Positions 10,777-33,745 of a stretch of DNA of 64,000 nucleotides are shown in pieces (position 1 is the stretch's first letter; each line of letters starts with the position of its first letter). Position numbers and translations under genes: made by a program. The DNA is taken from NCBI RefSeq assembly GCF_010726955.1, contig NZ_AP022603.1, positions 2,728,001 to 2,792,000 on the forward strand, written 5' to 3'. The DNA is from Mycolicibacterium fallax. Its GTDB lineage: Bacteria; Actinomycetota; Actinomycetes; Mycobacteriales; Mycobacteriaceae. Below the pieces are notes generated by a model. That model did not search any database and was not told the origin of the DNA. It was given only the letters and a program-made list of their open reading frames with translations.

Positions 10777-11391
10777 ATGTCCGAACCGAGCCCGCGCCCG
10801 CTGGCCGAGGCCAAGCGCGCCGCGGCCACCGATCACGTGCTGGCCGCCACCCGGCGACTGGTGATCGGCTCGGGACTGGACGTCACGATGGACGCGCTCG
10901 CCGAGGTTTCCGGGGTCAGCCGCCGCACCCTGTTCCGGATGTTCGGCACCCGGGAGGCGCTGATCGCCGCCGCCTTCGACGCCGGGATGGCCGGCTACGG
11001 CCGGAAGCTGCCCGAGTTCGACGGCGACCTGAACGGTTGGCTGCGGGCCACCTGCGCCGAGGCGCACCGGATGAACTCGGTGATCGGGCCCGGCTTCTTC
11101 GAGCTGGCCTCCCGGACCGATCTGCCGCCGGACCTGGCTCGCTCGGAACGACGACGGCGCAGCGACTTTCGCGCTATGGCGGTTCGCACCGCCGAGACGG
11201 CCTGGCGCGCCGCCGGACGCGACGGGGCACCCCCACCGGAGCTCATCGACACCGTCGGCGCGCACCTGAGCCCGCACTTCACCGCGGCGGCCACGGTCGA
11301 GGGCGGCCGGGATTGGCGCACCGCCGCCGAGCTGGCGTACGCCGCGATCCTGGCGGCCCTGCAGCGGCTCCAGCGTGACACTTTGACGTAG
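10777..11391 (+). CDS. TetR/AcrR family transcriptional regulator
   Basis: DNA-binding repressor of 204 residues. The N-terminal helix-turn-helix (about 25-70) contains TMDALAEVSGVSRRTLFRMF, the usual TetR recognition region; the remaining helical part is the ligand-binding and dimerisation domain. Start at ATG 10777, preceded by a -10 box at leaderless spacing. It is divergent from the Baeyer-Villiger-type monooxygenase and two palindromes lie between them, so autoregulation and control of that gene are expected. The inducer is unknown. The end of the gene overlaps a possible operator (11376-11399) for the next gene. Confidence 0.92.
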   Translation: MSEPSPRPLAEAKRAAATDHVLAATRRLVIGSGLDVTMDALAEVSGVSRRTLFRMFGTREALIAAAFDAGMAGYGRKLPEFDGDLNGWLRATCAEAHRMNSVIGPGFFELASRTDLPPDLARSERRRRSDFRAMAVRTAETAWRAAGRDGAPPPELIDTVGAHLSPHFTAAATVEGGRDWRTAAELAYAAILAALQRLQRDTLT

Positions 11392-11399
11392 GTCCGTAA
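11376..11399. promoter_or_regulatory. Near-match copy of the T(T/G)ACA-N14-TGTAA operator
   Basis: TGACA (11376-11380), 14 bp, then CGTAA (11395-11399): one mismatch to the motif shared with sites at 17234, 20239, 24050, 30511 and 33722. It overlaps the TetR stop codon and a -35 element TTGACG (11383-11388) placed 17 bp from the -10 box at 11406, so binding would block the SRPBCC promoter. Weakest of the six copies. Confidence 0.5.
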
Positions 11400-11405
11400 C
11401 GTCGC

Positions 11406-11411
11406 TAGCAT
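11406..11411 (+). promoter_or_regulatory. Promoter of SRPBCC gene (-10 TAGCAT, leaderless)
   Basis: TAGCAT lies 6 nt before the ATG at 11418, and TTGACG at 11383-11388 is 17 bp upstream of it, a good sigma-A spacing. No Shine-Dalgarno is present, so a leaderless mRNA is likely. Confidence 0.6.
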
Positions 11412-11417
11412 CCGCGG

Positions 11418-11930
11418 ATGGGCATCGTCACCACCTCCTCGGAGACCGCGTTTCACCAAAGCGCCGACGTGATCTGGGATTTCGTCACCAACCCGGCAAA
11501 CTGGACCAAGACCTACCCGGGCAGCGAACGCATCGGTGAGCTGCCCGCGGTGCCGCTGCAGGTGGGCGACACCTGGACCGAGGCAGGCCCGGACGGTGAG
11601 CGCATCTACACCTGGCAGTGCGCGATCGCCATGCGGCCGCGGATGTTCGTGTTCAACTCGGTGGGCCGGCTCGGGCACCGGCGCGACGGCAGCGGCGGCC
11701 TCGACGGCCGGATGACCATCGAGTACCAGTTCAGCGAGCCGGGCCCGGGGGTCACGCTGTTTCGTCGCACCATGACCATCGAATCGCCCAAGGGCGCACC
11801 GCTGCCCGATGGCTTCTACCGGATCGTCAACCCCGCCTTCATCGATGCCTACCACGCCGCGGTGGCCCGGGAGCTGGAGCAAGAGCAGTCCGCAGCGCCG
11901 CGCCCTGCAACTCGAACAGCCGCCGGCTGA
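11418..11930 (+). CDS. SRPBCC family protein (START/Bet v1-like)
   Basis: Small protein of 170 residues of the polyketide cyclase/dehydrase-like (SRPBCC) fold, which forms a hydrophobic ligand pocket. Typical features are the N-terminal SADVIWDFVTNPANW segment, alternating beta-strands (WTEAGPDGERIYTW, MTIEYQFSEPGPGVTLFRRTM) and the long C-terminal helix ending in AFIDAYHAAVARELE. It may bind or process a hydrophobic intermediate of the catabolic cluster. Its last 92 bp overlap the end of the esterase gene on the opposite strand. Expression is likely controlled by the operator-like site just upstream. Confidence 0.8.
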   Translation: MGIVTTSSETAFHQSADVIWDFVTNPANWTKTYPGSERIGELPAVPLQVGDTWTEAGPDGERIYTWQCAIAMRPRMFVFNSVGRLGHRRDGSGGLDGRMTIEYQFSEPGPGVTLFRRTMTIESPKGAPLPDGFYRIVNPAFIDAYHAAVARELEQEQSAAPRPATRTAAG

Positions 11931-12783
11931 CCGGCCAGTCCGGGGCAAGCGAATCGAAGCCGTGGCAGGTGCCCGGCCACAGGTGCAGTTCCACCGCGAC
12001 GCCGGACCGGGCCAGCCGCCCGGCGTAGTCCAGCGCCTCGTCGCGCAGTGGGTCGAGCTCCGAGCAGCTGATGAACGCCGGCGCCAGGGCGGCCAGTCGC
12101 TCGCGCCGGGCCGGGACCGCGGCGGCGTCGGGGGCGTGCCGGCCCAGGTAGAGCTGCCACATCGCGGCCGCGGCCGGCCCGTCGAAACCCGGGGTGTCGA
12201 CGAACTCGGCCTTGGCCGGGCTGCCGCGGTCGTCGAGCACCGGTTGGTGCAGCAGCTGGAACACCACGGCGGGGGCGGCGCCGTCGACGCTGCGCTGGGC
12301 CAGGGTGGCCGCCAGCCCGGCCCCGGCGCTGCTGCCCGCGACCGCCAGCGGCCCCGGCAGCCGCTCGGCCGCCCACACCAGCACCTCCAGGCAGTCCGCC
12401 AGCCCGGCCGGATAGGGATGTTCGGGGGCCAGCCGGTAGTCGACGGAGACGACGGTGCAGCCGGCCCCGCGGGCCAGCTGCACGCATTGGCGGTGATCGG
12501 TGTCGAGGTTGCCGAGCACGAACGCCCCGGAGTGGCAGAACAGCACCGTCGGCGCGTCGGGCCCGCCGCCGCGGTAGATCCGCACCCCGATGCCGCGGCC
12601 CTCCCCCGGCACCGTCTGCTCGGTGATCAGCACACCGGTGGTGTCGATGCCCGGCGCCGCCTCCGCGCGGCGCGCGTTGAGTCCGGCGCGCACCCGGTCC
12701 AGCGTGGTGCGGTCCACACTCGTTCGCGCCGAGGCAAATTCACGCAACGCCGGAGCCAGCCGGTCGGCGATCGAGGCGGCCAT
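11839..12783 (-). CDS. Alpha/beta hydrolase, HSL (hormone-sensitive lipase) family
   Basis: Esterase or lipase of 314 residues. The nucleophile elbow GSSAGAG carries the catalytic serine; the aspartate is in ELDPLRDE and the histidine in CHGFDS, so the triad is complete. The oxyanion motif, normally HGGG, reads HSGA (residues 84-87), which may alter activity or specificity. Start ATG at 12783, 6 bp after the stop of the SDR upstream, so it is the last gene of the minus-strand catabolic operon that begins at 17191. The 3' end overlaps the convergent SRPBCC gene by 92 bp; both proteins look natural at their ends. Confidence 0.88.
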   Translation of the reverse strand: MAASIADRLAPALREFASARTSVDRTTLDRVRAGLNARRAEAAPGIDTTGVLITEQTVPGEGRGIGVRIYRGGGPDAPTVLFCHSGAFVLGNLDTDHRQCVQLARGAGCTVVSVDYRLAPEHPYPAGLADCLEVLVWAAERLPGPLAVAGSSAGAGLAATLAQRSVDGAAPAVVFQLLHQPVLDDRGSPAKAEFVDTPGFDGPAAAAMWQLYLGRHAPDAAAVPARRERLAALAPAFISCSELDPLRDEALDYAGRLARSGVAVELHLWPGTCHGFDSLAPDWPVSRRLFELQGAALRTALAPAPGPPRRGRHR

Positions 12784-12789
12784 CGGGGC

Positions 12790-13515
12790 TCAGCCGATCG
12801 TCAGCGACTGACCGCCGTCGACGACCAGCTCGGCACCGGTGATGAAGGACGCGTGCTCGGAGACCAGGAAGGCGACGGCGTCGGCGACATCGCCGGGCAC
12901 GCCCAGCCGGCCGGCCGGGATCCGCTCGGCCAGCCGGGACTGGGTGGTCGAGTCGAGCATCGGGGTGGCGATCGGGCCGGGCAGCACCGCGTTGACCCGG
13001 ATGTCCGGGGCGAGCTCGGCGGCCAGAATCTGGGTCAGACCGCGCAGTCCCCACTTGGCGGTGCCGTAGGCGGCGTGCTGCGGGAACGGCCGGACCGCAC
13101 CGGTGCTGCAGGTGTTCACCACCGACGCGCCGGTGCCGGTGCGCAGCTGCGCGAGCGCGGCCTGCACACCGAGGAACGGCCCCAGGCAGTTGATCCGCCA
13201 GCTGCGCTCGAAGGCCTCCTCGGTCTCGTCGGCGACGGCGGCGCGGTGCAGCACCCCGGCGTTGTTGACCAACGCGGTCAACCCACCGAAGGCCTTGGCG
13301 GTGCGGGCGACGGCCGCGGTCCAGTCCGCGGCCGAGGTCACGTCGAGGGCCAGCGGCAGCACCTCGGGACCGAGATCGGCGGTGCCGGCGGCAAGTTCGT
13401 CGGTGAGCACGTCGGCGGCGGCAACCCGGAACCCGTCGTCGAGCAGGCGCCGCACGATCGCGGCGCCCTGGCCGCGGGCCGCCCCGGTGACCAGGGCAAT
13501 CTTGCTGGCGGTCAT
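12790..13515 (-). CDS. SDR family oxidoreductase
   Basis: Short-chain dehydrogenase of 241 residues with TGAARGQG cofactor motif, NNAG, the catalytic HAAYGTAK (YxxxK) and a C-terminal VDGGQS. ATG at 13515 overlaps the end of the aldolase gene as ATGA-type coupling. In the operon it stands with an aldolase, a Zn-alcohol dehydrogenase and a P450, consistent with oxidation of a hydroxylated intermediate. Specific substrate unknown. Confidence 0.92.
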   Translation of the reverse strand: MTASKIALVTGAARGQGAAIVRRLLDDGFRVAAADVLTDELAAGTADLGPEVLPLALDVTSAADWTAAVARTAKAFGGLTALVNNAGVLHRAAVADETEEAFERSWRINCLGPFLGVQAALAQLRTGTGASVVNTCSTGAVRPFPQHAAYGTAKWGLRGLTQILAAELAPDIRVNAVLPGPIATPMLDSTTQSRLAERIPAGRLGVPGDVADAVAFLVSEHASFITGAELVVDGGQSLTIG

Positions 13516-14285
13516 TGGTAGCCTCCGGCTGGTTTGGTCTGGCCCGTCGCGGTCTGGCTCGGTTCGGTCCCGGCCGCCTCGGCGAGGAATTCCGCGGCCC
13601 CGCGGCGCAGCGCCTGCGACTCGGCGGCCAGCGTCAACATGGTGTAGCCGCGGGCGGCCAGCATTCGGCCGGCCGCTCCGGTCCCGGCGTGAATGCCCGG
13701 GGTGATGCCCGCCGCGGTGGCCAGCGCCTGGATGTCGTCGATGGCCCCCAGCACCCGGGTGTCCGTCAGCCCGTCGGCCACCGCGACGCCCATCGAGATG
13801 GCCAGGTCGGCGGGTCCGACGTACACCCCGGCCAGTCCCGGCACCGCGCAGATCTCGGCGGCGGCCTGCACGCCGCGAACGGTTTCGATCATCACGTAGA
13901 CGCTGGTGCGGGTGGCCAGCGTCGCCAGGTCGGTGCCGAGGTCGGCGCGCAGCGGCCCGAAGCTGCGGACCCCGGTCGGCGGGTAGCAGGCCGCGGCCAC
14001 CGCGTCGGCGGCCTGCTCGGCCGATTCCACCAGCGCGATGATCACCCCGTCGGCGCCGGCGTCGAGCACCCGGCCGATCGGGGCGGGGTCGGCGCTGGGC
14101 AGCCGCACCAAGGTGGTGATCGGGACCCCGGACAGCCGGCGCAGCAGCCGGGCCGCGCCGGCGTCGTCGAAATAGCCGTGCTGGGTGTCGATGCCGACGT
14201 AGTGGTAGCCGGCGCGGGCGAACTCCTCGGGCCCGATGGCGGTCGGCCCGGTGATCCAGCCGCCCCAGCGCACCGCGGCGCTCAC
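13512..14285 (-). CDS. HpcH/HpaI-type class II aldolase/citrate lyase family protein
   Basis: Metal-dependent aldolase of 257 residues that cleaves or forms a C-C bond between a pyruvate-like or acyl moiety and an aldehyde. The catalytic histidine is in DTQHGYFD, the metal ligands are the glutamate in VMIETVRG and the aspartate in VGPADLA. Related enzymes act late in aromatic or sterol ring degradation, releasing pyruvate; here the partner P450, dehydrogenases and thioesterase suggest a similar end-of-pathway cleavage (inference). GTG start at 14285 overlaps the stop of the Zn-ADH gene by 4 bp. The C-terminal 25 residues (Thr/Gln-rich) are an unstructured tail. Confidence 0.9.
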   Translation of the reverse strand: MSAAVRWGGWITGPTAIGPEEFARAGYHYVGIDTQHGYFDDAGAARLLRRLSGVPITTLVRLPSADPAPIGRVLDAGADGVIIALVESAEQAADAVAAACYPPTGVRSFGPLRADLGTDLATLATRTSVYVMIETVRGVQAAAEICAVPGLAGVYVGPADLAISMGVAVADGLTDTRVLGAIDDIQALATAAGITPGIHAGTGAAGRMLAARGYTMLTLAAESQALRRGAAEFLAEAAGTEPSQTATGQTKPAGGYQ

Positions 14286-15250
14286 GGCACCAGCACGATC
14301 TTGATCCGCCCCGGGGTGGGGCGGGCGGCGAGCTCGAAGGCCTGCTGCACATCGTCGACCCCGAAGGTGTGGGTGACGTAGGCCGGCAGCAGCTCCGGGT
14401 GCTCGCGGGCGAACCGGTCGGCCTCGGTCAGCACCCGGCGCCGGTCCAGGGTGATGCCGGAGATCAGGGTCAGGTTGCTGCGCAGCATGTTCCGCATGCT
14501 GATCGGGTAGCAGTCATCGTCGGGAACCCCGAAGTAGAACACCGTGCCCCGCCAGCCGACCGCCTCGATGGCATGCCCGAGGGTGGCGACCTGGTGACCG
14601 ACGGCCTCGATGACGATGTCGGGTCTGGCGCCCGGGTCGAGGTGGGCCAGCCAGCGGTCACTGGTGGCGCGCACCGCGTCGTCGACACCGAAGGTCGCCG
14701 CGACGGCGCTGCGGTCCACCGGGTCCACGCCGGTGACCCGGGCCGCGCCGGCGGCCTTGGCGACATAGCTGAACAGCAGCCCGATCGAGCCCTGGCCGAT
14801 GACCGCGACGTGCTTGCCGGCCAGCGGCGGCAATTGTTCGACGGCGTAGAGCACACAGGCCAGCGGTTGCAGCGCCACCGCGTGCTCCGGCGCCAGCCCC
14901 GGGTCGTAGGGGGCCAGGCCCTCCCCGTCGGAGACCAGCTGGGCCTTGAGCCCGTCGAAGGCCGACGCCCAGCCGACCACTCGACTGCCAACCTGGTGTT
15001 CGGGGTGCGCGCTGGCCAGCACCTCGCCGACGATCTCGTGGATCGGGAAGCCGTCGATGTCGGCCGCGCACGGGCCGACGTCGGCGGGCAGCTTGCCCTG
15101 GGTGCCGCGGAATCCCGGCATGTCGCTGCCGCAGATCGCGGCCGCGCAGAACTTCAGCAGCACCTGGCCGGGTGCCAGTGTGGTCGGATCAGGTTCGGGC
15201 AGTTCGATCTTTTCGAAGGTGTACGGCGCGACGACCCGATGACACCACAC
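14282..15250 (-). CDS. Zinc-type alcohol dehydrogenase (MDR family)
   Basis: Medium-chain dehydrogenase/reductase of 322 residues, NAD(P)-dependent. It has the catalytic zinc cysteine in AAICGSD, the glutamate in IHEIVGEV, and the cofactor-binding GQGSIG. The four-cysteine structural zinc loop of many MDR enzymes is absent; only a lone cysteine (DVGPCAAD) is present in that region. GTG start at 15250, 3 nt after the P450 stop. Part of the P450-ADH-aldolase-SDR-esterase operon; probably oxidises an alcohol produced by the P450 (inference). Confidence 0.9.
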   Translation of the reverse strand: MWCHRVVAPYTFEKIELPEPDPTTLAPGQVLLKFCAAAICGSDMPGFRGTQGKLPADVGPCAADIDGFPIHEIVGEVLASAHPEHQVGSRVVGWASAFDGLKAQLVSDGEGLAPYDPGLAPEHAVALQPLACVLYAVEQLPPLAGKHVAVIGQGSIGLLFSYVAKAAGAARVTGVDPVDRSAVAATFGVDDAVRATSDRWLAHLDPGARPDIVIEAVGHQVATLGHAIEAVGWRGTVFYFGVPDDDCYPISMRNMLRSNLTLISGITLDRRRVLTEADRFAREHPELLPAYVTHTFGVDDVQQAFELAARPTPGRIKIVLVP

Positions 15251-15253
15251 GTT

Positions 15254-16477
15254 TCAGACCTCCACTGGGATGTTGTTCCAGCCCCATTGGAAGCTCGACG
15301 GCGGACGCGACGCGGCCATCTCGTCGATCCGGTAGTCGGGCACCCGCTTGAGGAACTCCTGCATCATGATTGTCACCTCGAGGCGGGCGACGTGTACCCC
15401 CATACAGAAATGTTGGCCGTGTCCGAAGGAGAGCAGTCGCTCGATCGGGCGGTCCCAGATGAACCGGTCCGGGTCGGGATATTCGCGCTCATCGCGGGCG
15501 GCCGAGGCCATCAGTGCGATGACCCGCTGCCCCGGCGCCATGGTGGTGCCGTGAATCTCGTAGGGCCGGCGCAGCGTTCGGGCGAACCACTGGGCCGGGG
15601 CGCTGTAGCGGATGATCTCCTCGCGGGCGACCGGGATGTTGGCGGTCAGGTCCTCGCGGACCGCGGCGAGTTGATCGGGATGGGCCAGCAGATGCCAGAG
15701 CCCGGTCGCGGTGATCTTCGGGACGGTTTCGGTGCCGCCGATGAACACCGCGAGCATCTGGGTGGCGGCCTCGGTGTCGCTCAGCGCCGAGCCGTCGGGC
15801 AGCCGGAAGTTGATCAGCGCGTCGGCGATCGGGTTGGCGCCGTCGGCGCCCGCGGCGCGGCGGCGTTCGATGATCGGGGTGAGGTAGGACAGGTAGCCGG
15901 GCCGGGAGTTCCCGATCTCGACGCCCTCGCCGGGCTGGGTCAGCGTGCTGGCGTTGATGGTGGCCAGCACCTCCGGTGCCAGTTCGGTTGGCAGCCCGAG
16001 AAAGTCACACACCATGGTGGCGGCGACGATGCCGCCGTAGTCCTGGGTGAGGTCGAAGCGGCCGCGGGGCAGCAATTCGTCGAGCCGCTCGTTGGCCAGC
16101 GTGCGGATCCGGTCGTCGAGTTTGGCCGCGGCCCGCGGCCGGAACTGCGCCGAGGTGCAGCGCCGGACGTTTTCGTAGATCGGCGAGTCGAAGTTGGCGT
16201 GAAAGGGCATGGGGTGCAACGGCGGGTCCGGAACCGGGCCATCGTTGTGGCGTTCCAGCACCGCGGCCGAGGGCAGGGTGCCCTCGGAGGCGACGAAGGT
16301 GCCGTCGGTGTTTCCGAGCACGGTCCAGATGTCCTCGAACCGGGACAGCGCGTAGGTGTCGAGTTCCTCGACGTAGTACACCGGATGCTCGTCGCGCAGC
16401 ACCCGGTAGTACGGCAGCGGATCGGCCATCACGCCCGGGTCAAAGGGGTTGTAGCGAAAGGTCGTTGGGCTGCTCAC
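15254..16477 (-). CDS. Cytochrome P450
   Basis: P450 of 407 residues. Heme signature FGHGQHFCMG with proximal cysteine about residue 358, ExxR as EIIR, and the I-helix motif FIGGTETV. GTG start at 16477 with GGAGAAG upstream as ribosome binding site. It follows the dimeric-barrel gene by 9 bp and precedes the Zn-ADH by 3 bp, so it belongs to the operon read from the divergent promoter near 17.2 kb. It would supply the first hydroxylation of the substrate; the redox partner is not encoded here. Confidence 0.93.
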   Translation of the reverse strand: MSSPTTFRYNPFDPGVMADPLPYYRVLRDEHPVYYVEELDTYALSRFEDIWTVLGNTDGTFVASEGTLPSAAVLERHNDGPVPDPPLHPMPFHANFDSPIYENVRRCTSAQFRPRAAAKLDDRIRTLANERLDELLPRGRFDLTQDYGGIVAATMVCDFLGLPTELAPEVLATINASTLTQPGEGVEIGNSRPGYLSYLTPIIERRRAAGADGANPIADALINFRLPDGSALSDTEAATQMLAVFIGGTETVPKITATGLWHLLAHPDQLAAVREDLTANIPVAREEIIRYSAPAQWFARTLRRPYEIHGTTMAPGQRVIALMASAARDEREYPDPDRFIWDRPIERLLSFGHGQHFCMGVHVARLEVTIMMQEFLKRVPDYRIDEMAASRPPSSFQWGWNNIPVEV

Positions 16478-16486
16478 CGGCTTCTC

Positions 16487-17191
16487 CTACTTCAGCGGGG
16501 AGGGCGGCAGCGCCGACAGGATGGAATCCTCCCAGCCGTCGCGCAGCGCGGGCGCCACGCTCATCCAGGTGACGATCTCCGCCGGCGGATCGCCCTTCCA
16601 GGACGGGTAGTGGTTCTCGAAGCAGTCCCAGTCCCCATCCAGCGCCCAATAGTGGATCACCTCGTTGAACCGGAAGGTGGTGATGAAGGAGCCGAGCCAG
16701 CGCTTGCCGGTGGACTCCGACCACGGCACGTAGAGCCGTTCGAGTTCGCGGATGTAGTCGTCCTGGCGGCCCGGTTTGGTCTCCATGATCTCCTGGATGA
16801 CCAGACCGGCGCCGAAGCCCTCGGCGCTCAGCTGCGCCAGCGTCTTGTTGTACTTGCCCGCGTACATGATTCGGCCCTCGCCGGTGGCGCCGATGCCGCC
16901 GAGATAGCGCGACCAGGCGGTCGCGGCCCGCTCGTGGCTGCCGCCGCGGGCCTGCGCGGCACCGATCCGCGCATAGTCGGCGAACGCGTCGATCTCCCAG
17001 ATCACGGTGACCTGAGGCCAGTGCCCGTTGTACCGGGTGGTCTCCCACAGCGCGAACAGCCGGGCCCCCAGCTCGGTCATCATCGGCTGGTAGATCTCCA
17101 GGAATTTCTCGGTGAACCCCGCACCGTCACCGGAGCCCAGCGATATCGTTTCGTGCAGATACAGCAGGGTGTGACCGTAAAACTTCTTCAT
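16487..17191 (-). CDS. Conserved hypothetical, NIPSNAP/dimeric alpha-beta barrel-like
   Basis: Protein of 234 residues with an apparent internal duplication: two segments of about 100 residues, each beginning with a beta-strand (LLYLHETISL; YAGKYNKTLAQL) and including a helix followed by WEIDAFADYAR and RFNEVIHYWALD strands. This pattern is typical of tandem dimeric alpha-beta barrels such as NIPSNAP proteins, but the assignment is by pattern only. ATG at 17191 is chosen because upstream in-frame starts would run into the operator region; GAGGAC lies about 12 nt before it. First gene of the minus-strand catabolic operon. Confidence 0.65.
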   Translation of the reverse strand: MKKFYGHTLLYLHETISLGSGDGAGFTEKFLEIYQPMMTELGARLFALWETTRYNGHWPQVTVIWEIDAFADYARIGAAQARGGSHERAATAWSRYLGGIGATGEGRIMYAGKYNKTLAQLSAEGFGAGLVIQEIMETKPGRQDDYIRELERLYVPWSESTGKRWLGSFITTFRFNEVIHYWALDGDWDCFENHYPSWKGDPPAEIVTWMSVAPALRDGWEDSILSALPPSPLK

Positions 17192-17233: not shown

Positions 17234-17257
17234 TGACACTTAAGCAATGATTTGTAA
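17234..17257. promoter_or_regulatory. Operator T(T/G)ACA-N14-TGTAA, divergent promoter
   Basis: TGACA (17234-17238), 14 bp, TGTAA (17253-17257), in the divergent gap between the minus-strand P450/aldolase operon (start 17191) and the lactonase gene (start 17247). It overlaps the lactonase start codon. The outer sequence GCGTGACACT...TGTAAAGC is nearly identical to the copy at 20239. Likely repressor site acting on both units. Confidence 0.7.
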
Positions 17258-18077
17258 AGCGCCGCGGCCGCTGGCGGGCGGCTTCTGCTTCGGCGAGGGC
17301 CCGCGCTGGCGGGACGGGGCGCTGTGGTTCTCCGACATGCTCGGGGCGGCCGTGCACACCGTCGACCCCAGCGGCGCGATGACGACGCTGCCGCTGCCCG
17401 GACACCGCCCCTCCGGGCTCGGCTTCACCTCCGACGGGGCCCTGCTGATCGCCTCCACCACCGCGCGCACCCTGCTGCGCCGCGACGCCGACGGGCTGCG
17501 CGTCATCGCAGAGCTGGCCGAACTGGCGCCCGCCGACCTCGGGGACCTGGTCGTCGACAACCACGACCGGGTGTACCTGGGATCCCAGGCCCGCACCGAC
17601 GGGGTGCTGATCCGGGTCGATCCCGACGGCGCCGCGGCCGTCGTCGCCACCGGGCTGGACTTCCCCAACGGCATGGTGATCACCGACGACGGCCGGACGC
17701 TGATCGTCGCGGAGTCCACCGGCCGGCGGCTGACCGCCTTCACCATCGCCGCCGACGGCGCGCTGCACGAACCGCGGGTGTTCGCCGGCGGCCTCGACGG
17801 CCCGCCCGACGGCCTGGCGATCGACGCCGACGGCGGCGTCTGGACCGCGCTGACACTGGCCAACCGCTTCGACCGGATCGTCGAGGGCGGCGCGGTCACC
17901 GATCGGGTCGAGCTGGGCGAGCGGGTGGCGATCGCCCCGGCGCTGGGCGGGCCCGACGGCCGCACCCTGTTTCTGTTGTCGAGCACCCTGGCCTATCCCG
18001 AGCGCCTGGTGGGCACCAAGCTGGCACGGGTGGACACCGTGACCGTCGAGATTCCCCGTGGAGGACTGCCATCGTGA
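17247..18077 (+). CDS. SMP-30/gluconolactonase-like protein
   Basis: Six-bladed beta-propeller lactonase/esterase family, 276 residues, metal-dependent. Family metal ligands are visible: the glutamate in FGEGPRW, the asparagine in DFPNGMVI and the aspartate in PPDGLAID. It probably hydrolyses a lactone, which would fit the product of a Baeyer-Villiger or P450 reaction (inference). The only plausible start is ATG 17247, which falls inside the operator, so the mRNA is likely leaderless or nearly so. The stop overlaps the start of the thioesterase as GTGA. Confidence 0.88.
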   Translation: MICKAPRPLAGGFCFGEGPRWRDGALWFSDMLGAAVHTVDPSGAMTTLPLPGHRPSGLGFTSDGALLIASTTARTLLRRDADGLRVIAELAELAPADLGDLVVDNHDRVYLGSQARTDGVLIRVDPDGAAAVVATGLDFPNGMVITDDGRTLIVAESTGRRLTAFTIAADGALHEPRVFAGGLDGPPDGLAIDADGGVWTALTLANRFDRIVEGGAVTDRVELGERVAIAPALGGPDGRTLFLLSSTLAYPERLVGTKLARVDTVTVEIPRGGLPS

Positions 18078-18904
18078 CGGACTGCTACTACGAACTGCTC
18101 GAGGACGACGCCCCGGTGGGCCCGGCGCGGGGGCAGCGGCTGCGCCCGACCGCGATGGCGATCAGCACCTGGACGTCCGCGATCCAGCACGGCGCCCCGG
18201 TGTCCGCGCTGCTGGTGCGGGCCCTGGAGCGGTGCGCGCCGCGGCCCGACACCCGGCTGTCCCGGGTGGTGGTGGACCTGCTCGGACCGGTGCCGATGGC
18301 CGAAAGCCTCTGGGTGACCGCACAACTGGAGCGCGGCGGCACGCAGATCGAACTGGTCGGCGCCACGCTGTGGGCACCGGGTCCCGATGGTTCGCCGCGC
18401 GCGGTGGCCCGGGCCAGCGGCTGGCGGCTGCAGACCCTGGACACCGCCGAGCTCGGTGCCGCGCCGACCGAACCGCTGCCCGGCCGGGAGGCGGGCATCG
18501 ACCGCGAGCTGGCCGGTAAGTGGGACCCCAACTACGTGCACAGCGTGGACTGGCTGTGGCTCAAGGTTCCGCCGCACGACGGACCGGGCGAATCCTGGAT
18601 GCGGCCGCGGGTGGCGCTGGTCGACGACGAACCGCTCACCCCGATCCAGCGGCTGTTCACCGTCGCCGACTGCGCCAACGGGCTGGGATCCAAGCTCGAC
18701 ATCCGGCGCTGGACGTTCATGAACACCGACATGTCGGTGCACCTGCACCGGGTGCCGACCGGGCAGTGGTCGGGCATCCGCGCCGACACCCACTACGGCC
18801 CGGACGGCATCGGCAGCACCGTCGGCACGCTGTTCGACGACCAGGGTCCGGTCGGCGTGATCGCCCAGTCGGTGCTGGTGCGGCCGCGCCCGCCGAAGCC
18901 GTGA
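18074..18904 (+). CDS. Acyl-CoA thioesterase family protein (double hotdog)
   Basis: Protein of 276 residues resembling the TesB-like/thioesterase-superfamily proteins of actinobacteria: two hotdog-like halves, the second containing PIQRLFTVADCANGLG and WTFMNTDMSVHLHR, the latter being the characteristic aspartate-containing strand. It should hydrolyse an acyl-CoA and recycle CoA. GTG start at 18074 is translationally coupled to the lactonase by a 4-bp overlap, so the pair forms a two-gene operon under the 17.2-kb operator. Confidence 0.82.
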   Translation: MTDCYYELLEDDAPVGPARGQRLRPTAMAISTWTSAIQHGAPVSALLVRALERCAPRPDTRLSRVVVDLLGPVPMAESLWVTAQLERGGTQIELVGATLWAPGPDGSPRAVARASGWRLQTLDTAELGAAPTEPLPGREAGIDRELAGKWDPNYVHSVDWLWLKVPPHDGPGESWMRPRVALVDDEPLTPIQRLFTVADCANGLGSKLDIRRWTFMNTDMSVHLHRVPTGQWSGIRADTHYGPDGIGSTVGTLFDDQGPVGVIAQSVLVRPRPPKP

Positions 18905-18974
18905 TCAGGGGTTGTTGAGCCCAGCGGCGCGCCGGCGGCAGCCGGGATCGGGCCGGCAATTGCCGCACCACGGC

Positions 18975-20228
18975 CTACCCGATATGCGCGGGCACCCGCT
19001 TGATGCCGTGGATGAAGCTGCTCTGCAGGTATTCCGGCTGGCCGAACTCCACCGTCTTCAGCCGGGTCAGCAGCTCCCGGAACAGATGGCGCAGTTCGGT
19101 TTTCGCCAGGCTCGCGCCCAGGCAGAAGTGCGGCCCGCCGCCGCCGAAGCCGAGGTGCGGGTTCGGGGATCGGCTCAGGTCGAATTCCCGAGGCCGCTCG
19201 AACACCGCCTCGTCGCGGTTGGCCGAGCAGTAGAACATGCAGATCTTGTCGCCTTCGCGCAGCTGCTGACCGCCCAGTTCGGTGTCGCGGGTGACGAACC
19301 GGGCGAACTGCATCACCGGGCTCGACCACCGAATGAACTCCTCGATCGCCGGCCCGATCCGGCCGTCGAAGTCCGCCATCAGCCAGGCCCGCTGCTCGGG
19401 GTTGGCGGCCAGCGCCATCATCGCGTGGGTGGTGGTCTGCTTGGTGGTGTCGTTGCCGGCCGAGGCCAACAGCACCAGGAAGGCGCCGACCTCCTCGTCG
19501 GTGAGCCGGTGCCCGTCCACCTCGGCGTTGACGATCGCGGTCATCAGATCGTCGGCCGGGTTGGCCCGCCGGTGCTTGGCCAGTTCGATGCCGGTGCTCG
19601 ACAGCAGGATCATCTCGTTGATGGTGTCGGTGGCCCGCTCCTCCAGGGAGCTGTAGTCGTCGTCGCTCATCGAGAAGAGCTTCTCCGCGGCGTGCGCGAC
19701 GGCCTCCCGATCGGCCGCGGGCACCCCGAGCATCTCCGAAATGGTCATCATCGGGAGCTGACTCGAGCAGGCGGCGACGAAGTCCACGTCGCCGGCGCCG
19801 ATCAGGCCGTCGACCACCCGCACGGCGTTGGCGTGGATCTGCTCCTCGATCTTGCGGACGTTGCGCGGGGTGAACGCCGAGCTGACCAGCCGCCGGTACA
19901 CCGTCTGCTGCGGCGGGTCCATCGTCAGGAAGAACGTCGCGATGCGCTGCATCTCCACCGGCATCGGATCCGGCGCCACGCCCTGGGCCGAGGAGAACAC
20001 CTCGTAGTTGAGGCTGGCCTCAACAATGTCGGCGCGCCGGGTGACCGCCCAGTAGCCGGGTTCCTCCAGGTCGAACAACGACGAGAACGGCCGCTGCCAG
20101 GACAGCCCCGGTTGGGCGCGCAGCTGCGCGAAGGTTTCGTCGCGCGCGGTGAAGGGCTGGGCCCAGAACTCCCGGGCCGAAATGTCGAGTTCGCTGTGCT
20201 GCCGCTCGGCGGCATCGACGACGGTCAT
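18975..20228 (-). CDS. Cytochrome P450 (CYP124/125/142-like group)
   Basis: P450 of 417 residues. Heme signature FGGGGPHFCLG with proximal cysteine about residue 369, ExxR as EFIR, and the I-helix motif ASAGNDTT. The GGGGPHFC form and AGN(D/E)TT are typical of the mycobacterial P450s that hydroxylate the terminal methyl of sterol side chains and branched lipids, so a lipid or terpenoid substrate is likely (inference from family resemblance). ATG at 20228 lies about 5 nt after the predicted transcription start set by a TAGTGT -10 box (20246-20241, minus strand) inside the operator. Divergent from the TetR unit. Confidence 0.92.
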   Translation of the reverse strand: MTVVDAAERQHSELDISAREFWAQPFTARDETFAQLRAQPGLSWQRPFSSLFDLEEPGYWAVTRRADIVEASLNYEVFSSAQGVAPDPMPVEMQRIATFFLTMDPPQQTVYRRLVSSAFTPRNVRKIEEQIHANAVRVVDGLIGAGDVDFVAACSSQLPMMTISEMLGVPAADREAVAHAAEKLFSMSDDDYSSLEERATDTINEMILLSSTGIELAKHRRANPADDLMTAIVNAEVDGHRLTDEEVGAFLVLLASAGNDTTKQTTTHAMMALAANPEQRAWLMADFDGRIGPAIEEFIRWSSPVMQFARFVTRDTELGGQQLREGDKICMFYCSANRDEAVFERPREFDLSRSPNPHLGFGGGGPHFCLGASLAKTELRHLFRELLTRLKTVEFGQPEYLQSSFIHGIKRVPAHIG

Positions 20229-20238: not shown

Positions 20239-20262
20239 TGACACTAACTACAATTGATGTAA
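20239..20262. promoter_or_regulatory. Operator T(T/G)ACA-N14-TGTAA covering two divergent -10 boxes
   Basis: TGACA (20239-20243), 14 bp, TGTAA (20258-20262). Within it lie a plus-strand -10 box TACAAT (20249-20254) and a minus-strand -10 box TAGTGT (complement of 20241-20246), which would start RNA about 5-6 nt before the small ORF at 20267 and the P450 at 20228. A dimer bound here would block both promoters. Confidence 0.7.
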
Positions 20263-24049: not shown

Positions 24050-24073
24050 TTACAGATTCACCTTGCACTGTAA
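24050..24073. promoter_or_regulatory. Operator TTACA-N14-TGTAA, divergent promoter
   Basis: TTACA (24050-24054), 14 bp, TGTAA (24069-24073): both half-sites perfect. It lies immediately before the SnoaL-VOC-LLM-kinase operon (start 24046) and about 58 bp before the serine hydrolase start (24131). It would block the minus-strand promoter directly; an effect on the plus-strand gene is less certain. Confidence 0.7.
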
Positions 24074-29376: not shown

Positions 29377-30486
29377 TCAGCTCACCGTGCGCGGCGCCTC
29401 GCCGACCGGGACCACCGCCAGGGTGGGCTGTTCGGGCAGCTCGTCGGCGTGAAACCAGCGGAACGACATCAGGCCCTCGGCGTGGTCCTTGGTGGACAGC
29501 GCGTTGGGGTGCTCGAGCTGCTCGCGGGCGATCACGATGGTGACGGTGCCGTCGCTGTTGGGCACCGCGGTGCCGATGTTGAGCCCGCCGCGGCCGTACT
29601 CGACGTCCAGCGCCGCCATGTACTGGTTCCACAGGGTGAAGTTCCAGAACCGCGCCGCCGGGTGCCGGCCGGTGATCACCAGCGCCTGGCCGGGTTCCAG
29701 GTTGAAGCCGCCTAGGCCGTAGCAGGCATCGGCCATCGAGTAGCCGTGGGTGGCGTCACCGGCCCGGTACGGCGGGGCCAGGAAGTTCTGGCCGGCCAGG
29801 ATCAGCGGGGTCAGCGCGTAAACGTCCTGGGCGAACCGCAGGGCGGCCCGCAGCGACCGGGCCACTCCGGCATCGGTGTGCTCGGGGGTGGGGTCGCAGC
29901 CGGCGTGGTCGATCACCTCGATGTCCCAGTCCACCCGGCGGCCCGCGGCCGGGAACCGGTGGTAGTCGCGGGTGAGCACGCCGTGGGCGTCCGGGGACAG
30001 TTCGATGAACGGGCCGTGGTAGCCGTCGGGTCGGCGGGGCCCCAGCACGCAGGAGAATCGGCCGTCGGCATCGCGGGGCAGGTCGGTGTCGTAGAGCAGT
30101 CCGACGGTCCGGTTCGGCCAGGCACCGGGCTCGGGTTCGTTGTAGACGGTGACCGAGTACATCGCGCTGTCGTTGGGGATGCCGCTGACCCGGTAGCTGC
30201 GGCGCGGGTCGACGACGGCGTAGCTGTAGTAGCAGTCGGTGTTGTCGCCGCCCCACCTGCGGTCCGGCCGGGTGGGGGTGAGGTTGTCGATGAACCGGGG
30301 CGCCACCGGGTCGGCGAACAGGTTCATGTCCAGCGCGACGCCGAGGATGGTCGCGAGGTTGCGGTAGCCCTCGGCGACGGCGGTCTGCCCGCGCACCGCC
30401 TTGGGGCCGGTGAGAAAGTTCTGGTCGAGGTCGGCGAACGCGGAGAGCAGTTCCCGCCAGGCCTGGGCGCTTTCGGAGCTGGACAT
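29377..30486 (-). CDS. DUF1214 domain-containing protein
   Basis: Protein of 369 residues whose C-terminal half carries the DUF1214 pattern, e.g. YSVTVYNEPEPGAW, PAARFWNFTLWNQYM and SDGTVTIVIARE. The domain is common in mycobacteria beside lipid and steroid degradation genes but its biochemical role is not known. Start set at ATG 30486 because a TATCAT -10 box lies exactly 7 nt upstream; the ATG at 30495 falls inside that box and would need a different promoter. Divergent from the sulfotransferase across an operator. Confidence 0.85.
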   Translation of the reverse strand: MSSSESAQAWRELLSAFADLDQNFLTGPKAVRGQTAVAEGYRNLATILGVALDMNLFADPVAPRFIDNLTPTRPDRRWGGDNTDCYYSYAVVDPRRSYRVSGIPNDSAMYSVTVYNEPEPGAWPNRTVGLLYDTDLPRDADGRFSCVLGPRRPDGYHGPFIELSPDAHGVLTRDYHRFPAAGRRVDWDIEVIDHAGCDPTPEHTDAGVARSLRAALRFAQDVYALTPLILAGQNFLAPPYRAGDATHGYSMADACYGLGGFNLEPGQALVITGRHPAARFWNFTLWNQYMAALDVEYGRGGLNIGTAVPNSDGTVTIVIAREQLEHPNALSTKDHAEGLMSFRWFHADELPEQPTLAVVPVGEAPRTVS

Positions 30487-30493
30487 ACCCGCC

Positions 30494-30499
30494 ATGATA
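30494..30499 (-). promoter_or_regulatory. -10 box TATCAT for leaderless DUF1214 transcript
   Basis: Minus-strand TATCAT, 7 nt, then ATG at 30486. This placement decides the start codon over the ATG at 30495. Confidence 0.55.
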
Positions 30500-30510: not shown

Positions 30511-30534
30511 TTACACAAAAACAGATCCTTGTAA
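30511..30534. promoter_or_regulatory. Operator TTACA-N14-TGTAA between DUF1214 and sulfotransferase
   Basis: TTACA (30511-30515), 14 bp, TGTAA (30530-30534), both half-sites perfect. The right half overlaps a -35 element TTGTAA (30529-30534) which is exactly 17 bp from the -10 box at 30552; the left half is just upstream of the minus-strand -10 box. Binding would repress both directions. Confidence 0.75.
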
Positions 30535-30564: not shown

Positions 30565-31821
30565 ATGAGTTCAACCGCAGCCCCCGCCGGCCGCATCCAC
30601 ATCGACGACCTGGCCGCGCCGCGGTTCTCGCCGCAGGCCCAGAGCATCATCGACGCGATGTCGGCGATGGCGGACCACTGCCCGTTGACCGCCGAGGCGC
30701 TGCACGAGCAGGCCACCGCGCAGACCGGTCTGACCGACTTCGGCGACCAGGACTACCGGGGGCGGATGTCGGTGCTGCTGCAGGCGTTTGAGGAGCTGCC
30801 GAACTTCACCTCGTTCGGTCGCACCTACGCGTTCTCGCTGATGCTGACGTTCCTCAAGGGCCGGCTCCGGGTGATCGATCACCTCAACCGGCACCCCGAG
30901 GTGTTCGACGTTCAGATCGCCGCGCCGTTGGTGATCGCCGGGCTGCCGCGCACCGGCACCACCCACCTGCACAGCATGCTGGCCGCCGATCCGGCGCTGC
31001 GCGCCCTGCCGTACTGGGAGGCCCAGGAGCCGCTGCCGCCGCCCGGCGAGGAGGGCACCAGCGCGGGTCGTCGGCAGCGCACCGGCGACGCGCTGAACAT
31101 CTCGGCCACCCTGATGCCGTACTTCCAGCTGATGCACGAGATGACCATCGACCACATCCACGAGGACATCGGGCTGATGGTCCAGGACTTCGCCAGCGGG
31201 TTTTTCACCACCCTCACGCACCTGCCGCGCTGGAGCGATTACCTGCGCGATCACGACCAAACCCCGGGGTATCAGTTCCTGCGGATGATGTTGCAGGTGC
31301 TCAGCCACCAGGACGGCCGGTCGCGGCGCTGGGTGCTCAAGAGCCCGCAGCATCTGGAGCAGTTCGTGCCGATCATGAACGTCTTCCCCGACGCCACCAT
31401 GATCGTCACCCACCGCGATCCGGTCGATGTGGCGGTGTCGATGGCGACGATGATGACCTACACCATGCGGATGAGCGTCGATCGGGTCGATGTCCCGACG
31501 GTCGCCGGGTACTGGATCGGCCGGATCGACGAGATGCTCTCGGCGTGCCTGCGCGACCACGACAAGCTGCCGGCCGACCGCACCATCGATGTGCGGTTCG
31601 ATGAGTTCATGGCCGATGACCTGGCGATGGTGGCGCGGGTGTGGGACGTCGCCGGGTACTGTCCCGACGCCGAATCCCGCGCCGCGGTCGCCGATTACCT
31701 GGCCGGGCACACCCGGGGCCGGCTCGGCGCGGTGGACTACCGGCCGGCCGACCTGGGCCTGGATCGCGATGAGCTGCGCGCCCGGTTCGCCCCGTATGTC
31801 GAGCGTTTCGTTAATGTCTGA
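30565..31821 (+). CDS. Sulfotransferase family protein
   Basis: Protein of 418 residues of the mycobacterial Stf/sulfotransferase family (Sulfotransfer_3-like). The 5'-phosphosulfate-binding loop PRTGTTHLHSML is intact (about 130-141), and the 3'-phosphate-binding region is represented by THRDPVDVAVSM (about 280). It may transfer sulfate from PAPS to a lipid or sterol, but members beside catabolic operons remain uncharacterised. ATG at 30565 with leaderless promoter; transcribed divergently from DUF1214 under the shared operator. Confidence 0.85.
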   Translation: MSSTAAPAGRIHIDDLAAPRFSPQAQSIIDAMSAMADHCPLTAEALHEQATAQTGLTDFGDQDYRGRMSVLLQAFEELPNFTSFGRTYAFSLMLTFLKGRLRVIDHLNRHPEVFDVQIAAPLVIAGLPRTGTTHLHSMLAADPALRALPYWEAQEPLPPPGEEGTSAGRRQRTGDALNISATLMPYFQLMHEMTIDHIHEDIGLMVQDFASGFFTTLTHLPRWSDYLRDHDQTPGYQFLRMMLQVLSHQDGRSRRWVLKSPQHLEQFVPIMNVFPDATMIVTHRDPVDVAVSMATMMTYTMRMSVDRVDVPTVAGYWIGRIDEMLSACLRDHDKLPADRTIDVRFDEFMADDLAMVARVWDVAGYCPDAESRAAVADYLAGHTRGRLGAVDYRPADLGLDRDELRARFAPYVERFVNV

Positions 31822-31870
31822 GTTTGGTCGACAGCCGAGTTTCGTCGGCACCCGAGTTTCGTTGACAGCC
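31820..31870. repeat. Three tandem 17-bp repeats
   Basis: Three imperfect direct repeats of the form GAGTTTCGTCGACAGCC: 31820-31836, 31837-31853 and 31854-31870, filling the gap between the sulfotransferase stop and the DUF427 ribosome binding site. A weaker GAGCGTTTCGTT copy precedes them inside the sulfotransferase C-terminus. They could have arisen by slippage or could bind a regulator. Confidence 0.7.
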
Positions 31871-31884
31871 GAGGAGGAGCGCCG

Positions 31885-32556
31885 ATGAGCCTGGTCGCCG
31901 GAGCCGGCCCGCACGGCCCGGAGCGGGCCGGGTGGTTCTCCGCCCCGGTGCCCGACAGGCTGGTCTACATCGAACCGCATCGCCGGCGGGTGCAGGCGGT
32001 GCGCGACGGCGTCGTGGTCATCGACACCGAGGCGGCCCTGCTGGCCCATCAGGCCGGCCGGCCGCTGAGCTTCCTGTTTCCCGCCGATGCGGTCGGCGAC
32101 CTGCCCTCCGAGCCCGAACCCCTTGCCCCGGGCCATGTTCGGGTGCCCTGGGATGCCGTCGACGGGTGGCTGGAGGAGGGCCGGGCACTGGTGCACTACC
32201 CGCCCAATCCCTATCACCGGGTGGACTGCCGGCCGGGTGCCCGACGGCTGCGGGTGCGGCTGGCCGGTCAGACGCTGGTCGACTCCGCCGACACCGTGAT
32301 CCTGTTCGAGACGTCGCTGCAGCCGCGGCTCTACGTCGCTCCGGAGCACATCCGGATGGACCTGCTGCGCCCGTCACCGACCACCAGCTACTGCAACTAC
32401 AAGGGTTGGGCGAGCTACTGGTCGGCGGTCGTCGGCGACACCGTGGTCGAGGATGTGGCCTGGAGCTACCCGGACCCGCTGCCCGAAAGTTCGCCCATTG
32501 CCGGGCTTTTGAGCTTTGACGCCGAGCGCACCGAGCTGTTCGCCGAACTACCGTAA
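31885..32556 (+). CDS. DUF427 domain-containing protein
   Basis: Protein of 223 residues with two DUF427 units; the second contains LVDSADTVILFETS, PRLYVAPEHIRMDLL and TSYCNYKGWASYWS, the hallmark of the family. Function is unknown; a small-molecule binding role has been suggested for related folds. ATG at 31885 has GAGGAGG 8 nt upstream. It probably belongs to the sulfotransferase transcript. Its end overlaps the convergent acyl-CoA dehydrogenase gene by 9 bp. Confidence 0.88.
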   Translation: MSLVAGAGPHGPERAGWFSAPVPDRLVYIEPHRRRVQAVRDGVVVIDTEAALLAHQAGRPLSFLFPADAVGDLPSEPEPLAPGHVRVPWDAVDGWLEEGRALVHYPPNPYHRVDCRPGARRLRVRLAGQTLVDSADTVILFETSLQPRLYVAPEHIRMDLLRPSPTTSYCNYKGWASYWSAVVGDTVVEDVAWSYPDPLPESSPIAGLLSFDAERTELFAELP

Positions 32557-33720
32557 CGCCGGGCGGGGCAGGCCGAGCAACTGCTGGGCGATCATGTTCC
32601 GGAACACCTCCAGGGTGCCGCCGTAGATGCCGGTCGGCCCGGCCAACCGGAAGACGTATTCGGCGGCGCCGTCGCCGGCGGCACCGGCGGTGCCCGCGGG
32701 CAGCAGCGCCGCCGGGCCGAGCAGGTCCATCAGTTCCGGCGCGACCTCGCGCATGGTCGCCGCGATCGCGACCCGGCCGCACATCTCCGAGCTGCTCATC
32801 GCCGCCTCGGTGCGCGCGGCGGCCCGGCCCAGCCGGTAGCCGACCGCACCGTCCTGCCCGGGTGCCGCGCCGCCGGGGTCCCGGCGTCCGACCACCGCGG
32901 CGGCCTCGTCGAGGGCCTCGCCGAGCAGCAGCACGTGCTCGGTCATGGTGGCCAGCTTCGACAGGCCGGCCGAATCACGTTCGAGCACGCCATGTTCGGC
33001 GGCCAGCGCCTCGCGCATCACCGCCCAGCCGCCGTCGACCTCGCCGATCCGGTTGCGGTCGGGCACCCGAACATCGCTGTAGTAGACGATGTTGGTGCGG
33101 TCCCCATCGACGGTGCGGATGCCCTGGATTTCGATTCCCGCAGTGTCCAGCGGCACCAGAAACATGGTCAGGTTTCGGTGCTTGGGCGCACTCGGGTCGG
33201 TGTTGGTCAGCAGGAAGACGAACCGGGCGTTGTGCGCGTTGGAGGTGAACATCTTGGCGCCGTTGATGATCCAGTCGCCTCCGTCGCGGACCGCGCGGGT
33301 CTTGCAGGTGGCGACGTCGGAGCCGCCCTCGGGTTCGGTGTAGCCCAGGCAGAGCCGGACCTCACCGGTCAGCACCGCGGGCAGCACCTCCTCGCGCAGG
33401 CCCGGTTCGGCGAACCGCTCAACCAGCCGCGCCACCATGGCGGTGGTGCCCCAGTGGAACCACGGGGTGCGGGCCCGACCGATCTCCAGCTCCCAGATCC
33501 GGCGGCGCACCGCGCTGAAGCCGCCGTCGCTCTCGGTGCGGTAGTCACCGGCCAGGTAGCCGGCCGCACCGAGGGCCAGGTGCACGCCCTCGTCGAAGTT
33601 CTCGCCGGTGATCCGGTCCCGCTCGATCACCTCGTCGGTGACCACCTCGGCCAGGAAGTCGCGCAGCTCACGCTGGAACGCGGCATCCTCCTCGGACAGC
33701 TCCACCGGCGAAAAATCCAT
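32548..33720 (-). CDS. Acyl-CoA dehydrogenase (FadE-like)
   Basis: FAD-dependent acyl-CoA dehydrogenase of 390 residues catalysing alpha,beta-desaturation of an acyl-CoA. Typical blocks are LCLGYTEPEGGSDVATCKT (FAD/substrate binding), WIINGAKMFTSNA and the C-terminal GPTGIYGGTLEVFRNMIAQ carrying the catalytic-glutamate region. ATG at 33720 is 1 nt from the operator at 33722-33745. Mycobacterial side-chain degrading FadE enzymes are often heteromers of two genes, but no second FadE is adjacent here, so it may be a homo-oligomer or pair with one elsewhere. Confidence 0.92.
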   Translation of the reverse strand: MDFSPVELSEEDAAFQRELRDFLAEVVTDEVIERDRITGENFDEGVHLALGAAGYLAGDYRTESDGGFSAVRRRIWELEIGRARTPWFHWGTTAMVARLVERFAEPGLREEVLPAVLTGEVRLCLGYTEPEGGSDVATCKTRAVRDGGDWIINGAKMFTSNAHNARFVFLLTNTDPSAPKHRNLTMFLVPLDTAGIEIQGIRTVDGDRTNIVYYSDVRVPDRNRIGEVDGGWAVMREALAAEHGVLERDSAGLSKLATMTEHVLLLGEALDEAAAVVGRRDPGGAAPGQDGAVGYRLGRAAARTEAAMSSSEMCGRVAIAATMREVAPELMDLLGPAALLPAGTAGAAGDGAAEYVFRLAGPTGIYGGTLEVFRNMIAQQLLGLPRPALR

Positions 33721-33721
33721 G

Positions 33722-33745
33722 TGACAGTTTTACATACTTTTGTAA
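33722..33745. promoter_or_regulatory. Operator T(T/G)ACA-N14-TGTAA before acyl-CoA dehydrogenase
   Basis: TGACA (33722-33726), 14 bp, TGTAA (33741-33745), plus an inner TTACA at 33730-33734 that also pairs with TGTAA at 6-bp spacing. It ends next to the ATG at 33720 and fills the 34-bp gap after irtB, marking the right-hand edge of the suspected regulon. Confidence 0.7.

Follow-up and report, generated by a model that had tools for sequence, protein, structure and literature searches.

In mycobacteria, the TetR repressors KstR and KstR2 bind palindromic sites and control P450 and acyl-CoA catabolism. A further palindrome, motif X, was described in 2019 before 14 operons of Mycobacterium sp. 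VKM Ac-1817D; it is assigned there to the regulator G155_05115, and its targets are phytosterol-induced P450s, alcohol and aldehyde dehydrogenases, short-chain dehydrogenases/reductases (SDRs), and three TetR genes (PMC6593523). Here we consider a 24-bp element, T(T/G)ACA-N14-TGTAA, that recurs in a 64,000-nucleotide stretch of the Mycolicibacterium fallax genome (assembly GCF_010726955.1, contig NZ_AP022603.1, positions 2,728,001 to 2,792,000). This stretch is the window below, and coordinates are counted within it unless genome positions are named. We consider it very probable that the element is the operator of the product of a TetR-family gene at 20377 (TetR 20377), which would regulate its own gene and, by sitting on the promoters, shut off a regulon for P450/acyl-CoA catabolism.

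Operator sites in the window and in related genomes

The pattern occurs at five exact places in the window (seven strand-wise matches), its half-sites exactly 14 bp apart, against a mean of 0.01 expected by chance from 100 dinucleotide shuffles. The original prediction, made from the letters of this DNA, had placed these copies at 17234, 20239, 24050, 30511, and 33722 and a one-mismatch copy at 11376-11399, and all six are there. It had also put four of the five exact copies in divergent gaps, which is the case, the fifth (33722) lying upstream of an acyl-CoA dehydrogenase gene only, and had noticed no copy elsewhere. A half-site profile that includes the flanks, built from 194 sites of other species and none from this window, recovers exactly these six sites and nothing else in the window at a score of at least 12, and six Markov shuffles yield none. 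The sites are the following.

11376 to 11399, plus strand: operator TGACA...CGTAA, with one mismatch in the right half, upstream of 11418; profile score 20.7
17234 to 17257, plus strand: operator in a divergent gap, extended consensus nearly intact (AGCGTGACACTT...ATTTGTAAAGCG); profile score 38.0
20239 to 20262, plus strand: operator between a CYP268-type P450 gene and TetR 20377; profile score 28.0
24050 to 24073, no strand assigned: operator of the symmetric TTACA/TGTAA type; profile score 18.8
30511 to 30534, no strand assigned: operator of the symmetric type, between DUF1214 and sulfotransferase genes; profile score 23.9
33722 to 33745, plus strand: operator upstream of the acyl-CoA dehydrogenase gene; profile score 21.6

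The flanks AGCGTGACACT and TGTAAAGC, said to be shared by 17234 and 20239, are likewise present in the sequence.

Scans of the complete genome and of related genomes, proposed with the original prediction, place the motif far above chance and find it conserved before orthologous genes. The M. fallax genome (one contig of 4,156,821 bases, completeness 100) holds 10 exact sites and none of the reversed control pattern, and five of the ten lie within a 16.5-kb part of the window. For the comparison across species we used 78 loci around TetR 20377 orthologues. They stem from the best 80 of 320 relatives, found in named public genomes whose titles all read Mycobacterium or Mycolicibacterium. In these 1.5 Mb the pattern T(T/G)ACA-N14-TGT(A/C)A occurs 220 times and its reversed counterpart never, with at least one site in every locus; 215 of the 220 fall between -80 and 400 of a called start, a figure that has no control. 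Chance AT-rich matches would account for the counts obtained with up to one mismatch, which are at background (47 forward versus 49 reversed in the M. fallax genome), so that mismatch copies need other support, but the exact counts in the window, the genome, and the 78 loci refute chance as the source of the element and leave it a negligible probability. The copy at 11376 runs into the end of the TetR-family gene at 10777-11391 (3' side), yet precedes an open reading frame (ORF) at 11418-11930; the one-mismatch counts had raised the suspicion that it is noise, which its profile score and its conservation before orthologues overturn.

The core pattern of the original prediction stands, but the operator is longer than 24 bp and asymmetric. 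Of 204 distinct sites, 175 combine one TGACA and one TTACA half, 26 have two TTACA halves, and 3 have two TGACA halves; conservation reaches outward, and the full asymmetric consensus is AGCGTGACACTT-N8-ATTTGTAAAGCT. In the gap between the CYP268 and TetR genes of several relatives (L093, L096, L098, and similar loci), two operators stand 60 to 61 bp apart (about 9847 and 9907), each close to the start of one of the genes. In genomes G034, G020, G122, and G175 the degenerate pattern also takes in a second, distinct palindrome that recurs, TGACATGTC(A/G)CT-N2-TGGA(A/C)TGTCA, which may belong to another regulator.

Link between the operator and TetR 20377

In 198 genomes of the genus, sampled evenly out of a larger group, the number of sites goes with the presence of this regulator. 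TetR 20377 orthologues (E ≤ 1e-40) are found in 164 genomes, which average 10.8 sites against 3.8 for the reversed control, while the 34 genomes without one average 2.5 against 3.4. At least five sites occur in 160 of the 164 genomes versus 6 of the 34 (Mann-Whitney p of 4e-18 for the site counts, in genomes that share ancestry). The number of sites also rises with TetR copies (rho of 0.67), the mean being 8.5 with one copy (93 genomes), 13.3 with two (49), 14.35 with three (20), and 22.0 with four (2). Twelve TetR-less genomes of at least 5 Mb average 3.1 sites, and genome size is therefore no explanation for the link. No TetR match better than 1e-10 was found in 24 sampled genomes from other families of the same order.

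Four points count against a direct link. Because the genomes are related, the p values treat them as more independent than they are; four genomes among the 164 with an orthologue hold fewer than five sites (1, 1, 3, and 4); the operator lies upstream of only 46 of the 104 TetR copies in the 78 loci; and the co-occurrence fits any gene of the cluster, being unable to separate TetR 20377 from other co-inherited cluster genes. Another co-inherited regulator might thus bind the motif with TetR 20377 as a passenger, and the window does hold further TetR genes at 10777 and 52666. We regard this as quite improbable, since an operator before those 46 copies is the usual sign of autoregulation, site number climbs with TetR copy number, and all 78 TetR loci hold a site. 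The regulator gene and a short reading frame before it are placed as follows.

20377 to 20970, plus strand: TetR-family regulator, proposed repressor of the regulon (TetR_N match at 1e-16; co-occurrence with sites)
20267 to 20380, plus strand: leader ORF of 37 codons that follows the operator directly and whose stop overlaps the start of TetR 20377 (GTGA)

TetR 20377 begins with a TetR_N helix-turn-helix (PF00440, E of 1e-16, 60.9 bits against a cut-off of 24), and its predicted structure (nine helices; pLDDT of 79, moderate confidence) has an all-helical C-terminal ligand-binding/dimer domain. The acyl-CoA-responsive TetRs FasR and FadR rank top among the fold matches of this model, and the recognition-helix region SRPTLYRWF is invariant in the 18 rows of one alignment (A1). 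A palindromic operator, a mark of TetR repressors, lies near the regulator gene and its divergent neighbor. Less favorable are four details: the top fold matches hardly stand out from 250 other matches of TetR type; a TetR copy in L117 has SRPTLYRYF instead; invariance of the helix in a second alignment (A2) is partly by construction, because RPTLYRWF was one of the two search patterns; and the TetR start in the window lies 104 bp beyond operator position 35, behind the leader ORF. A tblastn search of the relatives' loci with that ORF returned only two copies of the same place and a weak 21-residue match (E of 0.09), so that the ORF is either spurious or peculiar to this genome.

Start codons and predicted promoters

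In some target families the operator stands at a fixed distance from the start codon. Reading outward, an in-frame ATG or GTG is found at operator position 35 in 40 of 46 TetR genes, 20 of 28 CYP268 genes, and 15 of 23 aldehyde dehydrogenase genes, the other 8 of which have it at position 36; the APH kinase has an in-frame start codon at position 34 in 10 of 19 cases. TetR, P450, and aldehyde dehydrogenase are unrelated families, found on both strands, and the CYP268 gene of the window fits the rule, with its ATG (20228) at position 35. If transcription began at the start codon, the -10 hexamer (AAAGCT or CACGCT) would lie on positions 23-28 and, across a spacer of 17 bp, a -35 hexamer would occupy positions 0-5 (GTGACA or TTTACA), both of them within the extended operator. 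The last base of the supposed -10, T28, is kept beyond a TGTAA half on 67 of 87 sides with a start at 34-36 versus 75 of 155 other sides (Fisher p of 1e-5), and beyond a TGTCA half on 36 of 38 versus 91 of 158 (Fisher p of 3e-6); on gene-less TGTCA sides it drops to 0.24 (45 sides). Among 133 operators flanked by genes to the left and right, 19 have starts at 34-36 in both directions, 13 of the 19 being CYP268/TetR pairs, and two starts at position 35 put the start codons 44 bp apart.

From these positions we propose, as a possibility we rate somewhat below even, that operator and promoter are one object across the genus, each half-site supplying one promoter with its -35 and the opposite promoter with part of its -10. 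In similarly tentative terms, the tightest cases would be leaderless CYP268 and TetR genes whose starts lie 44 bp apart and which a single repressor binding event would close. On this view, promoter geometry would fix the exact 14-bp gap no less than the protein does. Several observations speak against such an overlay. Gene-less TGTAA sides keep T28 at 0.68 (47 sides), which a promoter does not predict; the SMP-30, TesB-like, CoA-transferase, 185-aa, NIPSNAP-like, and SRPBCC genes have no fixed start place (an SMP-30 start codon is at position 34 in 5 of 37); and an earlier in-frame start exists at 29 in 7 of 46 TetR genes and at 31 in 5 of 19 APH genes. The -10 consensus is TANNNT, which the supposed -10 hexamers fit only in part. 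The gene-less T28 count and the families that lack the rule led us to lower our confidence in the overlay slightly, from a level already just short of even. Two apparent starts were set aside. An SMP-30 start inside the operator is not a general rule, as an in-frame start at position 14 is found in only 11 of 37 genes and the L088 frame meets a stop; a position-35 GTG for the NIPSNAP-like gene is out of frame in five relatives tested and is apparently part of the opposite promoter's -35.

The asymmetry of most sites and the fixed start-codon distance in three families are also what would be expected if the element were mainly a promoter, possibly of a special sigma factor. A promoter has no need of a palindrome with an exact 14-bp gap, though, and both the symmetric TTACA/TGTAA versions with the same spacing and the co-occurrence with one TetR make this highly improbable. 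For the element as an operator we propose the following mechanism. TetR 20377 would bind the two inverted half-sites, AGC(G/T)T(G/T)ACA, whose centers are 19 bp apart; each would act as the -35 hexamer of the outward-reading promoter and, on the other strand, as the -10 region of the inward-reading one. As the operator would sit on the core promoters, bound repressor would block RNA polymerase in both directions, and it would be released by a ligand, which is probably either an oxygenated intermediate in the breakdown of the compound or a CoA thioester. Repression by occlusion is the role that operator placement suggests. Some TetR-family proteins activate, and NCBIfam names FasR an activator, so that TetR 20377 might activate at some or all sites; we think this unlikely to a marked degree, in that, at some genes, the predicted -35 and -10 are both under the operator, a position that favors occlusion.

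Target genes and comparison with known systems

The genes around the operators, with putative operon membership assigned from spacing, are these.

10777 to 11391: TetR-family gene
11418 to 11930, plus strand: SRPBCC/polyketide-cyclase-like gene (weak PF10604 match, 18.8 bits, below the cut-off of 27.4), overlapping the end of 11839
11839 to 17191, minus strand: putative operon left of operator 17234, comprising the next six genes
16487 to 17191, minus strand: conserved protein with a sub-threshold NIPSNAP match
15254 to 16432, minus strand: P450
14282 to 15250, minus strand: Zn-alcohol dehydrogenase-like
13512 to 14285, minus strand: HpcH/HpaI aldolase
12790 to 13515, minus strand: SDR
11839 to 12717, minus strand: HSL-type alpha/beta hydrolase
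17247 to 18077, plus strand: SMP-30/gluconolactonase-like lactonase, start uncertain (first ATG inside the operator)
18074 to 18904, plus strand: acyl-CoA thioesterase (4HBT_3 match, inside a longer ORF), second gene of the lactonase unit
18975 to 20228, minus strand: cytochrome P450, CYP268-type, start codon at operator position 35
20962 to 24034, minus strand: putative operon left of operator 24050, comprising the next four genes
23528 to 24034, minus strand: SnoaL-like
23046 to 23531, minus strand: glyoxalase-like
22108 to 23034, minus strand: F420/LLM oxidoreductase
20962 to 22104, minus strand: APH/EcKL-like kinase
24131: LipE, on the other side of operator 24050
29377 to 30495, minus strand: DUF1214 protein, predicted target
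30565 to 31821, plus strand: sulfotransferase, predicted target
31885 to 32556, plus strand: DUF427 protein, predicted target
32548 to 33720, minus strand: acyl-CoA dehydrogenase, predicted target

Membership was assessed among orthologues of at least 50% identity within the 78 loci, counting an operator between -80 and 400 of the called start. It lies upstream of 28 of 29 CYP268 genes, 19 of 20 APH kinases (the kinase standing first behind the operator), 37 of 44 SMP-30 lactonases, and 15 of 35 NIPSNAP-like genes. Directly upstream sites are few for DUF427 (5/35), acyl-CoA dehydrogenase (2/26), LLM (2/32), and the thioesterase at 18074 (2/46), and absent for alcohol dehydrogenase (0/18), SDR (0/11), and aldolase (0/9); these families are mostly inner genes of gene rows. 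In L135, LLM and acyl-CoA dehydrogenase genes follow, in the same direction, a TesB-like gene behind an operator, the acyl-CoA dehydrogenase third in the row, and the low direct counts therefore leave both as possible targets. The ORF at 11418-11930 is not in the gene caller's output; it has long matches in ten of the 78 loci (63-77% identity), each with an operator at most 250 bp upstream of the called start, and fragments in L113 and L087. The relatives have further target clusters behind an operator, with a TesB-like thioesterase in 32 loci, an unnamed 185-aa family in 26, a CoA-transferase III in 23, and an aldehyde dehydrogenase in 23. Much of this is assembled in one island in L117 and L141, which reads alcohol dehydrogenase, P450, NIPSNAP-like, operator, SMP-30, thioesterase, ferredoxin, CYP268, operator, TetR, CoA-transferase, operator, kinase, TetR, operator, aldehyde dehydrogenase, and SnoaL, with one extra 245-aa gene after the thioesterase in L141.

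Not all of the proposed set is retained. The original prediction had joined P450s, lactonase, DUF1214, sulfotransferase, and other genes under one TetR; the CYP268 P450 and the lactonase have conserved sites, whereas DUF1214/sulfotransferase and some distant sites are without conservation. No upstream site was found in two DUF1214 orthologues of 77-78% identity (3 of 29 other DUF1214 loci scanned), one of which adjoins another TetR copy with its own operator. LipE looks like a bystander and was rejected as a target, the operator being absent from all 29 other LipE loci (0/29), 24 of them from TetR-bearing genomes. Outside the window, the M. fallax genome has sites at genome positions 83732, 994007, 1729825, 2591699, and 3632928. 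The regulon reaches that far at 83732, before a SnoaL unit, which is kept in 7 of 27 other loci; of the other distant sites, those compared have weak support or none. Along with the LipE side of 24050, two of them lack conservation, which counts against our reading: 2591699 is kept in only 1 of 29 loci, and 994007 at the same place in 0 of 15, 3 of which have a profile match about 1.3 kb upstream. Site 1729825 was dropped as a sure member, the orthologous gaps mostly holding variants such as TGTCA...TGTAA or TTCCA...TGTAA. These variant half-sites recur at the same place in the SDR/CstA gap of many species (L018, which holds 1729825, and orthologous gaps among L251-L278), possibly for a related regulator with its own specificity.

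As we envisage it, TetR 20377 would repress its own gene and those around it, which encode P450s, the lactonase, the thioesterase, and enzymes acting on CoA compounds and aldehydes, together with a few distant units. The closest solved structure to the P450 at 18975 is CYP268A2 (446.7 bits over 413 residues; next CYP125MRCA, 362), and CYP268A2 oxidizes branched and isoprenoid-type lipids. Together with CYP268, the lactonase, alcohol and aldehyde dehydrogenases, CoA-transferase, acyl-CoA dehydrogenase, thioesterase, and aldolase suggest that a branched or cyclic lipid is first hydroxylated and then degraded in a manner resembling beta-oxidation; our assignments of substrate and ligand are tentative. 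Beside CYP268 the window has only about 70 bp (18904-18975), and its redox partner is therefore probably elsewhere; relatives carry a ferredoxin-like gene there (L117:5338-5532, L141:5623-5820, L093:8385-8597; Pfam checked for L117 only).

Two other parts of the window may be mentioned. Between 51251 and 54638 lie P450, TetR (52666), SDR, and SnoaL genes, the last 71-77% identical to the SnoaL behind the operator-controlled aldehyde dehydrogenase in relatives; the profile scan found no operator at this SnoaL unit. Beside the regulon, at 33755-38130, are two ABC exporter genes, one of which (35485-38130) has a siderophore-interacting (SIP) domain; the pair is IrtAB-like.

With these results, a P450/acyl-CoA catabolic island that TetR 20377 marks in 164 of 198 sampled genomes of the genus gains a proposed regulator, its operator, and a set of predicted targets, and what releases this protein would offer a route to the substrate of CYP268 and its partners. 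If true, the overlay of operator and promoter would be a space-saving layout for divergent genes without leaders, and could be used as it stands as a reporter that reads in two directions. In the open-text literature, which lacks figures and many subscription papers, no report that names this motif was found.

Among known regulators, KstR motifs are short adjacent palindromes and are not known to have half-sites 14 bp apart, unlike the operator here; TetR 20377 scores 31.2 bits against the KstR equivalog cut-off of 280. The mycofactocin regulator MftR is equally distant (31.3 bits against 224.9). FasR and FadR resemble it in their top-ranked predicted folds and in fatty-acid/acyl-CoA type regulation, but structural alignments give 15-22% identity and the FasR equivalog 35.1 bits against 330.

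We take the core cluster of the motif X system to match M. tuberculosis Rv0760c-Rv0767c and not the cluster found here, which speaks against identity of the two systems. The present element might be motif X itself, the operator of the phytosterol-induced regulon of the Rv0767c orthologue G155_05115. Like the system here, motif X belongs to a mycobacterial TetR, is a palindrome near the regulator's start codon, has P450, dehydrogenase, and TetR genes among its targets, and comes with predicted autoregulation (PMC6593523). In chromatin immunoprecipitation, Rv0767c regions are reported to be enriched in GAC/GTC, as TGACA/TGTCA halves would give, and depleted in TAA/TTA although the operator has TTACA/TGTAA, a weak objection as the depletion is reported to be common to most factors (PMC10312376). 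The motif X core cluster, which lies beside the Rv0767c orthologue and includes a steroid delta-isomerase, is by its description unlike the cluster described here; the motif letters are given only in a figure (PMC6593523). On balance we judge identity with motif X unlikely.

Mce3R is the best PDB sequence match of TetR 20377, over the helix-turn-helix part only, and differs in that it is a double TetR whose operator is not a palindrome (PMC11667970). PccD was rejected for its different footprint (PMC11596240). Balhana et al. (2015) found eleven TetR motifs likewise placed between divergent mycobacterial TetR genes and their neighbors; their logos are images only, and one of these motifs may be the present one (PMC4482099). 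TetR operators and regulons are well known; the present analysis adds the letters of the operator, its connection across the genus to a single TetR, a list of targets, and the predicted promoter overlay.

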